Shown here: in pieces, positions 1,969-27,985 of the stretch
How positions within the stretch are numbered: the stretch's first letter is position 1
Layout: each line of letters opens with the position of its first letter
Source of the DNA: a virus
DNA: 39,349 nt
IMG/VR virus record: IMGVR_UViG_3300023210_000087
Location: 1 to 39,349 of that record
Direction: 5' to 3' (one strand)
The notes under the pieces: model-generated
Database searches by the model: none
What the model was told of the DNA's origin: nothing
The model's input: the letters and a program-made list of their open reading frames with translations, nothing else
Position numbers and translations under genes: made by a program

Positions 1969-2256
1969 AAAGGGGAGAAGAAGAGAGAGAGGAAAAGAGG
2001 GGGAGTTTACCGGGGAAAGGGATATTTTAAGATTATCGGGTTCATTTAATGAATGAGGTTCAGTGCGTTAAACACCCAAATACCCAAAAACACATATATG
2101 TGCACAAACCAGCAAATCTGTACACATATATGTAGTTATCTCTTAAAGACCTGCAACATTGTCGCCACAAACCAGAGACCTTAAAAACATACTGAAAAGA
2201 AAATCTTAAAAAGTAGTGGCATAACTAACCTCCGAATTTTTGATCTTTTAATTCCT

Positions 2257-2628
2257 TTAACACATCTCTCTCCTTTTTAACATCATTTCCCCAATATTCC
2301 CCTTTTTGACAACCTGGGAATAAGGGCTTTTAAAACCGCTCTTCTTATCATGAACCTCATCCCTAACTTCATTATAGTTTCTAATGACTTCATGATTAAT
2401 AGGTACTTTTTCAGTATAAAGTAAAAAAGTAATAACCCTATGGGCAAGTTTAGTAAAAGCTATTTTTTGATTCTCAATTCTTGACTTACTTGCAGTACCT
2501 CTTTCCACAAAACCCGTAGAAAGATGAGTTATTCTACAACAATTCTGGTGCTTATTACGATGTTGACCACCAGCCCCACTACCAGAATACCACTCAAGTT
2601 TAAAGTCTTTCTTTGTTAAGTGTAACAT
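2257..2628 (-). CDS. release-factor-like GGQ domain protein
   Basis: The 123-residue product carries GSGAGGQHRNKHQNCCRITH, the GGQ loop of class I peptide-chain release factors that enters the ribosomal peptidyl-transferase centre to hydrolyse peptidyl-tRNA. There is no codon-recognition domain, so it resembles stand-alone RF-1-domain proteins (ArfB/PrfH-like) and phage RF homologues, not RF1/RF2. The frame is open from 2658, but the ATG at 2628 follows AAAGGAGAG and is preferred. It is the last gene of the leftward unit and has its own candidate promoter about 195 bp upstream. Substrate (stalled ribosomes or ordinary termination) is inferred only. Confidence 0.8.
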   Translation of the reverse strand: MLHLTKKDFKLEWYSGSGAGGQHRNKHQNCCRITHLSTGFVERGTASKSRIENQKIAFTKLAHRVITFLLYTEKVPINHEVIRNYNEVRDEVHDKKSGFKSPYSQVVKKGNIGEMMLKRREMC

Positions 2629-2823
2629 TCTCTCCTTTATCAACTTGATCTTCCTCATTAAGAGATATCAGGTGTACAGAACATCTTTATTCCCTTCACA
2701 GAACTCAATAGAGCAAAGCATTTTAAACAATTTTTATTTTTTAAGTGTTATTGTTGTCGTTCTCTTCAAACCTTTAGTAACAACTTTCGTTAGTAAAAGT
2801 TAAAGAAGAAGAACAATTAAATA

Positions 2824-2863
2824 ATCATAATATAAGCATTAATTTCAAATGCACAAGGCCCCC
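2824..2863 (-). promoter_or_regulatory. 40-bp phage promoter motif, copy A
   Basis: Reading leftward: GGGGGCCTTGTGCATT, five variable bases, then TTAATGCTTATATTATGAT. It matches copy B at 17173-17212 at 36 of 40 positions. TTGTGC and TATATT are 16 bp apart, like -35 and -10 boxes, but conservation continues upstream (G-run) and through the spacer, suggesting extra protein contacts. The first gene downstream is the GGQ protein. Confidence 0.6.
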
Positions 2864-8123: not shown

Positions 8124-8152
8124 AATATATCACATTAAAACTTATTTGTCAA
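8124..8152 (-). promoter_or_regulatory. sigma-70-type promoter
   Basis: On the minus strand TTGACA (8147-8152) and TATATT (8124-8129) are separated by 17 bp. It overlaps the last codons of nrdG and would start transcription at about 8117, giving the leader RNA and the small genes down to the GGQ region. Confidence 0.7.
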
Positions 8153-8597
8153 CCCCTATTTTAATTATTCTTTGATTTAAACTTGCAAGTGTTACCCCAT
8201 ATTCAGTGTCGGTGTATGGATCGAGGTTTTTTTGGTAACTCCCAACCTTTGCGTGAGTAATATACTTAGAAATCTTTTCTGGAATATGAGTGTATCTTGT
8301 CCACAGCCATATCTCAAAATCCGGGGGAGAAAAGTGTTTTATCATGGCAATAAATCGCCATAAACGTTCAAGATCCTGATCCAGGGGTTCTCCACCCATT
8401 ATCCATACTCTTTTAGTTATTGGAAGATTACCTTTTTGAATGATAAGACTCATTAAACTTCCAAAAGGATTATGTCCCCGCTCAAAACTCCATAATTCTT
8501 CATTATGACAACCTTCACAGTGTGGAACACAACATCCACTGATGTAAACTTCCACTGCTTTATGATTTAAGTTAAAATCTATTCCAGCAAGTTTCAT
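8142..8597 (-). CDS. nrdG: anaerobic ribonucleotide reductase activating protein
   Basis: A 151-residue radical-SAM activase. CVPHCEGC at residues 23-30 gives the Cys-x3-Cys-x2-Cys cluster that binds the [4Fe-4S] centre, and GGEP at about 68-71 is the SAM-binding strand. NrdG uses S-adenosylmethionine to create the glycyl radical on NrdD. The length is normal for phage and bacterial NrdG (about 150-175). It lies downstream of nrdD with two tiny Cys-rich genes in between, and its ATG overlaps the stop of the 56-aa gene (ATGA). Confidence 0.93.
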   Translation of the reverse strand: MKLAGIDFNLNHKAVEVYISGCCVPHCEGCHNEELWSFERGHNPFGSLMSLIIQKGNLPITKRVWIMGGEPLDQDLERLWRFIAMIKHFSPPDFEIWLWTRYTHIPEKISKYITHAKVGSYQKNLDPYTDTEYGVTLASLNQRIIKIGVDK

Positions 8598-8764
8598 TTT
8601 TGTTCCCTTCTCAAATTACATTTATCCGCATCATAATAATAATCTGAGTAATGATCCTCACAAGACACATTTTTTTGGTTGTTAATTGTACACTTATAAT
8701 CTGGCCCACCATTATTCCAGTGCCATTTTCTAAACGGGCATCCACTCTCTCTTTTTTCAGCCAT
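8594..8764 (-). CDS. small Cys/His-containing protein, 56 aa
   Basis: The product begins MAEKRESGCPFRKWHWNNGG and includes CTINN, SCEDHYSDYYYDADKC: four Cys spread across the chain with aromatic and Asp residues, a likely small metal-binding domain. It overlaps the 60-aa Cys-rich gene upstream by 8 bp and nrdG by 4 bp, so it sits inside the nrdD-nrdG operon and may be co-expressed with the reductase. No family recognised. Confidence 0.6.
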   Translation of the reverse strand: MAEKRESGCPFRKWHWNNGGPDYKCTINNQKNVSCEDHYSDYYYDADKCNLRREQK

Positions 8765-8939
8765 TTAAAATCTCCTTTTTATAGAGTTTACGACAATGAA
8801 CTCGCTTTCCAACAATGTCACAGAATTCCCAGGATAGACAGGAATCTTTCCCAATATCCCTTTCATGAACGTCACCATGGGGACAAACATACTTACAGTG
8901 ATTACCTTTTTTTGTAAAGTTACAAGTTACGAGTGGCAT
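8757..8939 (-). CDS. small Cys-rich protein in the nrd operon, 60 aa
   Basis: The frame is open from 8999, but the ATG at 8939 follows AAGGAGGGAGGGAAG and avoids overlap with nrdD, so it is preferred. The product starts MPLVTCNFTKKGNHCKYVCP and has six Cys and several His (CPHGDVHERD, CLSWEFC, HCRK), consistent with a small metal-binding protein. It follows nrdD directly. Its placement suggests a link with the reductase, but that is inference. Confidence 0.6.
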   Translation of the reverse strand: MPLVTCNFTKKGNHCKYVCPHGDVHERDIGKDSCLSWEFCDIVGKRVHCRKLYKKEILNG

Positions 8940-8952
8940 CTTCCCTCCCTCC

Positions 8953-10866
8953 TTAATAAAACTGTCTATTCTTCCAATCATGCTTTCTTCTAACTTCATT
9001 CCAATTAGCTACATTAGTAAAAAACCCAACAACTCTTGTTACTACTGTATCAATTCCTTTTCCACAAACCGGGCAAGTTTCTCCATCAATGAAGATATGA
9101 TCGTCTTCACATCTTTTAAGAGCATAATTAACTGCCCAGTAAACCACCCCACATTGTGCAGAGTATACCATAAGATCTATCATTGTGTCAACACTTTTTA
9201 TTTGTTCACCAACATTAATGTGACAAATAGCCCCTCCAGAAAATTTATTATCAAACTTGCCTTGGAGTCTGAGGCGATCAAGCATATCGGCAGTTGTTGT
9301 GAGTGGAATGAATTGGTTACTATAGAGTTTATAGATATCCTGATATTTCAAGGAGTTATCTCTCTTAGCGAGTTTTACGGCAGAAGATTCGGCAGGAACT
9401 TGTTCACAATTATGTGGTGCCTTAAATCTCTTAGCCATCTTATCATTTTCTTCATTGATAACATCTAAGAGATCAAGTACAAACTCTTCTCCCTCATCAC
9501 TCATAATATCATACCCAAGTACCTCTAAAGCCTCATTAAGTCCAGTAACACCATAAGTGGAATACTGTTTTGATAGATCCATGTGACCCAATGTGTATAG
9601 CGGCATAGCATTAAGTTCAATTCGTTTTTTAATGATATTTCTTTTAGCATTATTTATCCTTCCAATCGTTTCTACAGATTTCCTTATACTTTCAATGAAA
9701 GCCGAGTCAGGATCTTCCTGTTTAACGGCTAAATAAGCTAATCTGGGAAGATTACTTGTTACGACCCCTAAAGATCCAATCTTTGTGCTTCCCGCCCCAA
9801 AACTATTAAAGTATTCATTATTAACACTACTTCTGAGCCGACAACAACTACTAAGTGTACTCGTATCACCATAATAAATATTGATAAAGCCAAACTCCAT
9901 ATTCTGAGTTGCAATATATTCTAAGAACTTTTTATCCTGAATAATTCCATCTTTTACATAAAAAGCTGCTGTTGTAACGGGAAAGGTTAGATGTGATCGT
10001 CTTAACTCATCATTCATTGCCTCAATATAGAGTTTTTGAATGTCTTTAACAGTTGAAATATTAGAAGACTCACCATTTGAAAATTTATAATCTTTTACAA
10101 GTCCACTTAAGAATTCATCATCATAAACTGAGATGTTTGTAAATGGGGATTGATTACCCCGAAACTCCCAATTGAGCGTGTAAATAAAACTTCTCAATCT
10201 TTCACTAACATATGTTTTAATTTTATCTGAAAATATAAGTGTACCGGTATTCTCGTGATCAATACAGATCCGCCCATCATATCCTGTCTCTATAATTTTA
10301 TCAACATAATGAGCAGCAACAATCAACACATCAGCAAGCCCTGTCGCCCCAAGTGTGCTATTTGCAGCATAAACTGTAAACTGCTCCATTTGTCTTATAA
10401 AGCTTTCAAGACTTTTTGGGGGCTTTATACTCATTCTATTGGACATGTTAAGCCCCTCAAGAGCAATATCATAGGTGCTGAAATTGAAACAATATGGAGA
10501 TCCAATATCAGAAAAATCATTAATATATATTTCACCTGATATTTGTTTCTCAATTATTTCATTTGCAACTTGGAGTCCATAACTTGTTTTTAAACTCTTC
10601 CATAATAAATAATGAGAGTTATATTTTTGAATAGGTTTTTGGAATTCAAAATTATAATCAATCACACTTTTACCACCAACATTAGCATTAGCATCAATGC
10701 TAACATCAGCGGTTGTACTTTTGTTATTAAAAAACTTCTGAGAAAATTTATTGAGATCCAATTGATCACCAATCCCATTCTCAGTGAATATTTCTCTACC
10801 GAATTTCCCCCAGAGATGGTGCATTAGGTCAGAGAAATCCTGATGCCACGTAACTTTGAAATACAT
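8953..10866 (-). CDS. nrdD: anaerobic (class III) ribonucleoside-triphosphate reductase
   Basis: A 637-residue glycyl-radical enzyme that reduces ribonucleotides to deoxyribonucleotides without oxygen. Visible features: the substrate-site region with SSCCRLRSS and FNSFGAGSTKIGSLGVVTSN, the C-terminal zinc site (CEDD ... CPVCG) and the glycyl-radical loop TRVVGFFTNVANWN, with the radical Gly near residue 614. There is no N-terminal ATP cone, as in T4 NrdD, so allosteric dATP shut-off is probably absent. ATG follows GAGGTAAATTAAT. It heads the nrdD - two small Cys genes - nrdG group. The enzyme implies replication in an anaerobic host. Confidence 0.95.
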   Translation of the reverse strand: MYFKVTWHQDFSDLMHHLWGKFGREIFTENGIGDQLDLNKFSQKFFNNKSTTADVSIDANANVGGKSVIDYNFEFQKPIQKYNSHYLLWKSLKTSYGLQVANEIIEKQISGEIYINDFSDIGSPYCFNFSTYDIALEGLNMSNRMSIKPPKSLESFIRQMEQFTVYAANSTLGATGLADVLIVAAHYVDKIIETGYDGRICIDHENTGTLIFSDKIKTYVSERLRSFIYTLNWEFRGNQSPFTNISVYDDEFLSGLVKDYKFSNGESSNISTVKDIQKLYIEAMNDELRRSHLTFPVTTAAFYVKDGIIQDKKFLEYIATQNMEFGFINIYYGDTSTLSSCCRLRSSVNNEYFNSFGAGSTKIGSLGVVTSNLPRLAYLAVKQEDPDSAFIESIRKSVETIGRINNAKRNIIKKRIELNAMPLYTLGHMDLSKQYSTYGVTGLNEALEVLGYDIMSDEGEEFVLDLLDVINEENDKMAKRFKAPHNCEQVPAESSAVKLAKRDNSLKYQDIYKLYSNQFIPLTTTADMLDRLRLQGKFDNKFSGGAICHINVGEQIKSVDTMIDLMVYSAQCGVVYWAVNYALKRCEDDHIFIDGETCPVCGKGIDTVVTRVVGFFTNVANWNEVRRKHDWKNRQFY

Positions 10867-16248: not shown

Positions 16249-16277
16249 ACTATAACACAGGTATTTTTATTTGTCAA
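16249..16277 (-). promoter_or_regulatory. sigma-70 promoter
   Basis: Minus strand TTGACA (16272-16277), 17-bp spacer, TATAGT (16249-16254), upstream of the 88-aa gene. It overlaps the 3' end of the 213-aa gene. Confidence 0.75.
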
Positions 16278-16908: not shown

Positions 16909-16995
16909 ATTCCCCCTGCATAAAGTTGTACATAAAGTTGTTACTCAATATTGTAAATAACAACAACAACACTTAAAAAACTTGTTATGAACAAT

Positions 16996-17023
16996 ATTAT
17001 ACATATTTTATTTTATTTGTCAA
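16996..17023 (-). promoter_or_regulatory. consensus sigma-70 promoter, proximal
   Basis: Minus strand TTGACA (17018-17023), 16-bp spacer, TATAAT (16996-17001); both boxes are perfect. Preceded by AAGTAC, as is the distal copy. Drives the leftward unit starting with the 213-aa gene. Confidence 0.85.
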
Positions 17024-17091: not shown

Positions 17092-17119
17092 ATTATAAGC
17101 ACTAAAATTTGTTTGTCAA
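17092..17119 (-). promoter_or_regulatory. consensus sigma-70 promoter, distal
   Basis: Minus strand TTGACA (17114-17119), 16-bp spacer, TATAAT (17092-17097). Shares AAGTACTTGACAAA with the proximal copy 96 bp downstream. A third, weaker AAGTAC-like/TTGAAA box lies just upstream near 17130. Confidence 0.85.
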
Positions 17120-17172: not shown

Positions 17173-17212
17173 GGGGGCCTTGTGCATTCAATTTTAATGC
17201 TTATATTATGAT
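17173..17212 (+). promoter_or_regulatory. 40-bp phage promoter motif, copy B
   Basis: GGGGGCCTTGTGCATT, five variable bases, TTAATGCTTATATTATGAT; 36 of 40 positions equal copy A at 2824-2863 (opposite strand). It points into the virion gene block. With the -10 box at 17202-17207 the start site would be near 17215, the ATG of the first gene. Confidence 0.6.
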
Positions 17213-17214
17213 CT

Positions 17215-17385
17215 ATGAAGTTAGAAAAGAAAGAAAGAATTAAGGCAATGCGTTGTTTAGCTTGTGGAATAGAATTATATCATGATCATGATGAAGAATA
17301 TGATTTTAGTGACGATCTTTGTAGAGAGTGTTCTTTTATTGTTGGTGATAATATAGGTGATTTACCACCCTTCCTCTCTCCGTAG
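17215..17385 (+). CDS. small zinc-binding protein, 56 aa
   Basis: Product begins MKLEKKERIKAMRCLACGIE and has CLAC and CREC about 28 residues apart, a zinc site, followed by an acidic HDHDEEYDFSDD linker. If the upstream motif is a promoter, this ATG would be at or near the transcript 5' end (leaderless); an internal ATG at 17248 (MRCLACG) gives a 45-residue alternative with a weak ribosome site. First gene of the rightward virion unit; regulatory role possible. Confidence 0.5.
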   Translation: MKLEKKERIKAMRCLACGIELYHDHDEEYDFSDDLCRECSFIVGDNIGDLPPFLSP

Positions 17386-17421: not shown

Positions 17422-17450
17422 GGTGCTTTGTATTTACTTAGCACCTTTTT
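17422..17450 (+). terminator. intrinsic terminator or attenuator
   Basis: GGTGCT (17422-17427), a 12-nt loop, AGCACC (17440-17445) and a TTTTT run. It sits between the 56-aa gene and the virion genes, so it could stop leader transcription unless anti-terminated. Confidence 0.6.
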
Positions 17451-17481: not shown

Positions 17482-17778
17482 ATGTTATTATTACTCGATG
17501 AAGTAGAAGCTAATACAACTGGATCTCAAGATACGTTTAAGTGGAATCCATCCCTTGCTAATAGTGGAAAGGGTATGGTGTATGCTTTTGGAACTTGGGA
17601 TGGTGCTACTTTAACGGTTGAATTTTCTCCTGATGGTGGAACGACTTGGTTTGCTATTGGAACTGACACGACATTTACTGCCAGTGGTTGGGCGAACTTT
17701 GAAATGCAGGGGATGGTTCTTATAAGAGGATCTATTTCCAGTGTTGGTACAACTACTCTCTCTTTGGGACTTTTATAA
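17482..17778 (+). CDS. probable virion surface protein, 98 aa
   Basis: The frame opens at 17428 inside the terminator, but ATG 17482 after AAAAAGGATT is the likely start. The product is a beta-rich single domain (GTWDGATLTVEFSPDGGTTW, FAIGTDTTFTASGWANFEMQ), low in Cys and Lys and rich in Gly/Thr, like phage fibre or decoration domains. No specific family is recognised. It opens the block of adhesin-type genes. Confidence 0.55.
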   Translation: MLLLLDEVEANTTGSQDTFKWNPSLANSGKGMVYAFGTWDGATLTVEFSPDGGTTWFAIGTDTTFTASGWANFEMQGMVLIRGSISSVGTTTLSLGLL

Positions 17779-27005: not shown

Positions 27006-27985
27006 TGAGTATTGATACTGAAAATAAAAGAAGATCTGTGACTGGAATAACTTCAGTTTTTACTATCTCTCCAGTACCTGATAATACTATCTCCATTAGT
27101 GATAGACGACATGCTACTCTTCTATATGCTAATATATTTAGTACACTTCTTGTAATATCAGATCTTTTACAAGTTCAGGATTTGGAGACATTAGATCCTG
27201 TACAGCAGAACATTCTTGCTATTGCTGCCCTATTACAGGCACAAAGCTTAGATAATGTAGACTTACAGGCAGGAATCATATTAGTTATTGCTGCTCTTCT
27301 ACAATCTCAAAGTTTAGAAACCTTAGATCTTGTGCAACAAAACACAGTTTCTATTGCAGATATTAATCAAGTTCAGAATCTTGAAGCTTTAGACCTTCTT
27401 CAACAGAGTTTATTAAATATTGCCAGTATTGATCAGGCTCAAAGTTTAGAAGCTTTGGTATTGGATATTGCGCTTTCCTTACAGATTGCGAGTATAAATC
27501 AGGCCCAAAGTTTAGAAGTTTTAGATCTGGTACAACAGAATATTCTTTCAATATTAAGCCTTTTACAAGCCCAAGAACTTGATAATGTTGGTCTTATTAT
27601 CGGTATTATTTTACAGATTAATAATCTTTTACAGGCACAAAGTATTGATGTAGCAGATCTAATCCAACAAAATACCTTAGTAATCAATAGCCTTCTTCAA
27701 GCCCAGAGTTTGGATAACATGTTACTAACTTTTGTTGCGATACTTCAAATTACTGATATATTACAGTCTCAAAGTATTGAGGGATTGGACTTAACACAAG
27801 CAAACTTACTACAAATTGCTGATATATTACAATCCCAAGAAATTGATAATATAACTTTTATAACAACAAAAGGTAAGGTCACGATAACTTTTACTCTAAA
27901 AACGTCAAGTATTAGTTATGAGTTGAAAGTTCCAAATATTAATCAAGAACTATCTATTCCAGATATTTCTTTTACTGTTGAATAG
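27005..27985 (+). CDS. 22-residue-repeat virion protein
   Basis: Residues 54-273 consist of ten consecutive 22-residue units with consensus LLQAQSLDNLDLVQQNILSI plus two residues, and a partial eleventh. The regular Leu/Ile spacing with Gln ladders suggests a solenoid or an extended coiled structure. The C-terminal 40 residues (KGKVTITFTLKTSSISYELK ...) are beta-strand rich, as in phage tail-tip or fibre proteins. The start overlaps the previous TAA (TAATG). No enzyme motif. Likely a structural shaft or chaperone-like fibre part. Confidence 0.65.
   Translation: MSIDTENKRRSVTGITSVFTISPVPDNTISISDRRHATLLYANIFSTLLVISDLLQVQDLETLDPVQQNILAIAALLQAQSLDNVDLQAGIILVIAALLQSQSLETLDLVQQNTVSIADINQVQNLEALDLLQQSLLNIASIDQAQSLEALVLDIALSLQIASINQAQSLEVLDLVQQNILSILSLLQAQELDNVGLIIGIILQINNLLQAQSIDVADLIQQNTLVINSLLQAQSLDNMLLTFVAILQITDILQSQSIEGLDLTQANLLQIADILQSQEIDNITFITTKGKVTITFTLKTSSISYELKVPNINQELSIPDISFTVE
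27164..27823 (+). repeat. ten tandem 66-bp coding repeats
   Basis: Ten in-frame 66-bp units encode the 22-residue repeats. Codons differ between units, so the repeat is old or kept diverse; the protein pattern is far better conserved than the DNA. Confidence 0.85.

Follow-up and report, generated by a model that had tools for sequence, protein, structure and literature searches.

The viral record IMGVR_UViG_3300023210_000087 contains a 40-bp element, real and well above chance level, whose two opposite-facing copies are most probably a pair of promoters. From its sequence we consider it likely that the element is a second-class promoter module of the phage, used by the host RNA polymerase and probably aided by a phage-encoded DNA-binding protein. 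The modules would head two short units, one encoding a small CxxC protein and the other a release-factor-like protein.

The window analysed here is the whole IMG/VR record, 39,349 bases of the virus class with a G+C content of 35%. Its TerL matches those of Cronobacter and Salmonella phages at ~51% and its major capsid protein (MCP) that of Pseudomonas phage M1, classed in Ounavirinae, at 46%, both being matches to FelixO1/rV5-type myoviruses. The complete relatives of this type that are listed measure ~75-150 kb, so the window is probably a genome fragment, and more than half of the phage genome may be missing from it. Genes between 16908 and 2257 are read leftward, and those from 17215 onward rightward, as far as the end. 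The NrdG-like and NrdD genes at 8142-10866 (-) suggest phage growth in its host under anaerobic conditions, and 66-bp coding repeats at 27176-27846 (+) lie in a 326-aa protein of no known family. A convergent region of 1.1 kb (~1124-2256) is without a convincing gene; within it, at 1841-1969, CTATACTGAAATGATATAGATTA is found three times, once in diverged form, and with the nearby palindromes, such as TGTGCCATGGCACA, has an origin- or operator-like appearance.

The element and its promoter-like anatomy

The element was picked out in a sequence-only reading of the window. Its presence in two opposite-facing copies (Table 1), their identity at 36 of 40 positions and the confinement of all four differences to five spacer bases (element positions 17, 18, 20 and 21) were each reproduced here. 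The copies are 14.3 kb apart, both in intergenic, non-coding DNA and each facing the next gene, and the sequences flanking them are unrelated (40% and 30% identical). Across 11 dinucleotide shuffles the best 40-mer pair agreed at only 30/40, and the pattern of the element matches the window twice, compared with 0.00 matches expected in shuffles. The only 40-mer pairs in the window as good or better are repeats within a long ORF in the 24-27 kb region. Four random differences would fall within a 5-base span with P 0.0016, so that recent plain copying is a poor explanation of the pair and constraint on its outer parts a better one. Both loci also share a second piece, GTTGTTACT...ACAACAAYAACACTTAAAAAA, at 16936-16980 (+) and 2786-2737 (-); it runs in the direction of the element but precedes one copy and follows the other.

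The element is best read as a promoter, a reading that its anatomy supports well. With boxes 16 bp apart, transcription is predicted to start at 17214 for copy 1 and at 2822 for copy 2. The constant DNA then spans -41 to -2, which is the footprint of a polymerase, with the variable bases at -25 to -21, and a G-run ahead of the -35-like box is kept in both copies. Compared with the sigma-70 hexamers TTGACA and TATAAT, the -35-like box is weak (3/6) and the -10-like box good (5/6), the spacer being 16 bp; in sigma-70 promoters the hexamers stand 16-18 bp apart and transcripts begin 6-8 nt past the -10 box. The total of 8/12 lies below the scan threshold of 9/12, at which the window gives 85 sigma-70 hits against 81.5 in shuffles, that is, shuffle level. 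A 5-bp dyad such as that in the spacer is not significant alone (P ~0.4 in 36 bp of AT-rich DNA); what appears notable is its position, enclosing the variable bases, rather than the dyad as such.

Near-perfect sigma-70 sites (at least 11/12) number seven in the window, all leftward and none rightward, where shuffles give ~1.4 per strand. Two of them stand in tandem, back to back with copy 1. Since all seven are leftward, no rightward candidate ahead of 17482 is better than the element. With its 3/6 -35 box it looks like a second promoter class, and its distinctness from the ordinary sigma-70 promoters of the phage, seven consensus sites that all face left, is well supported. The element was also compared with one of these leftward promoters, that at 17119, but the likeness (22/35, with the next best at 21/35) is not significant and was set aside. 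A sigma-54 promoter (TGGCAC-N5-TTGC, GG and GC 10 bp apart) was likewise rejected: at the required spacing copy 1 has AG rather than GG, and TGGCAC is in neither copy.

Table 1. Features of the element, its two loci and the promoters compared with it. Positions are those of the window except in the last line.
Feature	Position	Strand	Remarks
40-bp element, copy 1	17173..17212	+	predicted -41 to -2
40-bp element, copy 2	2824..2863	-	
-35-like box TTGTGC, copy 1	17180..17185	+	from sequence; copy 2: 2856-2851 (-)
-10-like box TATATT, copy 1	17202..17207	+	from sequence; copy 2: 2834-2829 (-)
Dyad GCATT-N7-AATGC in spacer	17184..17200	+	all four differences in its loop; copy 2: 2852-2836 (-)
Small ORF headed by copy 1	17215..17385	+	45-56 codons
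Intrinsic terminator GGTGCT-N12-AGCACC-TTTTT	17422..17450	+	between small ORF and virion gene at 17482
Release-factor-like gene headed by copy 2	2257..2628	-	GGQ motif; start at 2628 with AAGGAGAG, or alternatively at 2658
Structured leader of release-factor-like gene	2715..2822	-	long hairpin, z -3.5
Intrinsic terminator 3' of release-factor-like gene	2091..2134	-	strong, z -7.0
Consensus sigma-70 promoter TTGACA-16-TATAAT	17092..17119	-	back to back with copy 1
Consensus sigma-70 promoter TTGACA-16-TATAAT	16996..17023	-	tandem with 17092..17119 promoter; back to back with copy 1
Sigma-70 promoter TTGACA-17-TATAGT	16249..16277	-	similar AAGTGCTTGACA lead
Three tandem promoter + small-ORF cassettes	41976-42790		in IMGVR_UViG_3300038548_000082

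The two units headed by the element

The small ORF behind copy 1 is likely to start at ATG 17248, with AAGG just upstream, which gives 45 codons and two CxxC pairs. It matches no family above threshold, the best hit being a sub-threshold match to DUF7562 (E 0.056). The terminator that follows (-10.9 kcal/mol; none of 200 shuffles as good) lies ~210 bp past the predicted start and ~32 bp ahead of the gene that opens the virion block. Copy 1 was suggested to feed this block. That does not hold in a direct sense, since the terminator separates element and small ORF from the first virion gene, and read-through would be required. Copy 1 would mainly yield a ~235-nt transcript of the small CxxC ORF, with virion block transcripts arising from it only when the terminator is read through. 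On the other side of copy 1, the first leftward gene encodes 213 aa; its AlphaFold model has a pLDDT of 35, too low to use.

At copy 2, position and strand are consistent with the proposal that this copy feeds the release-factor-like gene, which has an RF-1 domain (E 7e-14) and whose mRNA would be the main product. The gene may, as earlier suggested, be expressed late, and the element offers an initial idea of how a release-factor-like gene of a phage may be controlled. Of all intrinsic terminators in the window, the best two follow the element-headed genes, and under a stringent definition they are the only convincing ones. Shuffled windows are expected to contain 0.6 such terminators, both strands included, so it is the placement of the two that matters and not their number.

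In the reading that we favour, the element would fire as a promoter, and a regulator would contact the GGGGGCC/TTGTGC side, the GCATT...AATGC arms, or both, compensating for the weak -35 box. The copy-1 and copy-2 units would then be under one common control, separate from that of the leftward consensus sigma-70 promoters.

Homologue searches and promoter cassettes in a relative

Searches with the 40-bp pattern had been suggested for the rest of the genome and its relatives. They found the two copies in the window and none in 11 related records (allowing 3 mismatches), in IMG/VR or the GTDB representatives (exact and gapped patterns) or in INPHARED, where blastn hits were at chance level only; nor does the non-coding DNA of phage M1 contain a comparable repeat. 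Relatives were sought through TerL, MCP, NrdD and the 213-aa gene, but none spans the element region at close range and the known ones are distant, so that absence of the element elsewhere is not informative. Pattern matches in IMG/VR and GTDB were rejected as homologues because they look like GGGGCCTTGTGCCCC-T-run terminators, with one exception inside a coding gene; the gapped IMG/VR matches all have a 17-bp gap, compared with the 16-bp gap of the window. These GGGGCCTTGTGCCCC terminator-like hairpins recur across many viral contigs, lying 3' of a capsid-like gene in the main family of matches, and one adjoins a pnp-like ORF in a Kangiellaceae MAG (gene names assigned by eye).

No sigma factor, known activator or antiterminator of the Q, AlpA or GafZ type was identified among the window proteins tested, the window probably being a fragment. 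Of the proposal that a phage activator or sigma factor is at work, the contrast between the element and ordinary sigma-70 promoters stands, but the protein itself we can only infer.

A promoter design like that of the window is seen in IMGVR_UViG_3300038548_000082, a 94.9-kb record from a distant relative whose TerL is 45% identical to that of the window. Three near-identical promoters, TTGACAAGGGGC-N4-GCCCCTATACT, are found there at 41976, 42417 and 42743, each directly preceding one small ORF, and the copies are 34-40/40 identical. Between -35 and -10 they contain a dyad, GGGGC-N4-GCCCC, with constant arms and a loop that reads GCAA, GCAA and TAGC. Dyads of 6 bp are enriched among the promoters of this record (37% versus 7% in shuffles, duplicates included), an enrichment absent from the promoters of M1 and from the sigma-70 promoters of the window. 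As in the window, there are near-identical 40-bp copies, a dyad in the spacer whose arms are constant and whose loop varies, and one small ORF for each copy. The cassettes differ in having a consensus TTGACA, in being tandem rather than inverted, in their unrelated sequence and in a leader that is also conserved. They indicate that the wider phage group can carry repeated spacer-dyad promoter modules, each driving one small gene, and by analogy the window element is probably a variation on this design. Equally, they undercut the earlier argument that conservation beyond the needs of sigma-70 implies an activator: the relative repeats 40-bp promoters with TTGACA boxes at 34-40/40, so strong conservation alone need not imply a new sigma factor.

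Alternative explanations and known promoter systems

The second-class promoter reading draws on copies that agree at 36/40, where shuffles reach 30/40 at most, on the clustered differences, the unrelated flanks, the gene-facing copies and the placement of terminators, on the leftward direction of all seven strong sigma-70 sites, and on the similar design in the relative. Counted against it are the 3/6 -35 box, the 8/12 total, the presence of two copies only, the frequency of 5-bp dyads by chance in such AT-rich DNA and the empty searches for homologues and a regulator.

A gate of the lambda Q, AlpA or GafZ kind is an unlikely alternative. Here a phage protein would bind the spacer dyad, board the polymerase and take it past the terminator at 17422-17450 and on to the virion genes, only a short leader transcript being made otherwise. 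In the known cases the binding element (QBE of lambda PR', ABE of AlpA, ZBE of GafZ) is placed in the spacer between -35 and -10 of the promoter, that of GafZ being a palindrome (PMC6606751, PMC7969949, PMC11150451). The dyad of the window, a candidate binding element that is not significant alone, also lies in the spacer, and the intrinsic terminator expected shortly downstream and before an operon is found at copy 1, alone and just ahead of the first virion gene. No strong rightward sigma-70 promoter was found ahead of 17482. Copy 2, however, gates no long operon: behind its single gene stands a terminator that faces oncoming genes, so that read-through would have no obvious use there. Homologues of Q, AlpA and GafZ were not identified in the window and, unlike in the lambdoid Q case, no conserved -10-like pause sequence could be seen by eye past the predicted start, where the copies differ. 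The bolder combination, in which the element is both promoter and loading site of a novel phage antiterminator or activator that opens a FelixO1/rV5-type virion block by read-through of 17422-17450 and also switches on the release-factor-like protein, seems distinctly unlikely.

A plain host sigma-70 promoter, recently duplicated and without a dedicated regulator, is also an unlikely account. The tandem near-identical cassettes of the relative (34-40/40), with their consensus boxes, would fit simple duplication. In the window, by contrast, the flanks are without any match, the differences are clustered in the spacer, and both copies combine a weak -35 box with a G-run that is kept ahead of it.

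A site acting at the DNA level, for recombination, inversion, replication or repressor binding, is improbable. The opposite orientation of the copies across 14.3 kb, the central dyad and the central differences would suit such a site, but exchange of the tyrosine-recombinase type needs identical central bases, and precisely those differ; both copies, moreover, face a gene start and cover a promoter-sized footprint. An element that acts in the transcripts as RNA, either a hairpin or a terminator, is most improbable: the 12-mer GGGGCCTTGTGC also provides the 5' arm of terminators that are common in other phages, but the strand gives poorer folds than shuffles do (z +1.1 to +1.6), has no match in Rfam and has neither the U-tract nor the 3' GCCCC arm that would make it the GC-rich hairpin and T run of an intrinsic terminator.

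Among known systems, the middle promoters of T4 (MotA/AsiA) and those of Mu (Mor/C) depend on an activator and have a degenerate -35 box. The second-class promoter proposed here resembles them in its good -10 box, poor -35 box and extra conserved DNA both at -35 and above it; unlike them, it has no known activator box, and no activator was identified in the window. In phages phiEco32 and 7-11, promoters for a phage sigma factor form a second class beside sigma-70 early promoters (PMC8948821). The element looks like such a second class, although its consensus differs and a sigma gene was not identified in the window fragment. For rV5, its authors described sigma-70 promoters throughout the genome and found no T4 late-regulator homologues (PMC3606486). 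The way in which FelixO1/rV5-type phages pass from early to late transcription would become a testable question given a sharply defined second promoter class, with a dyad and a terminator gate ahead of the virion genes as candidates.
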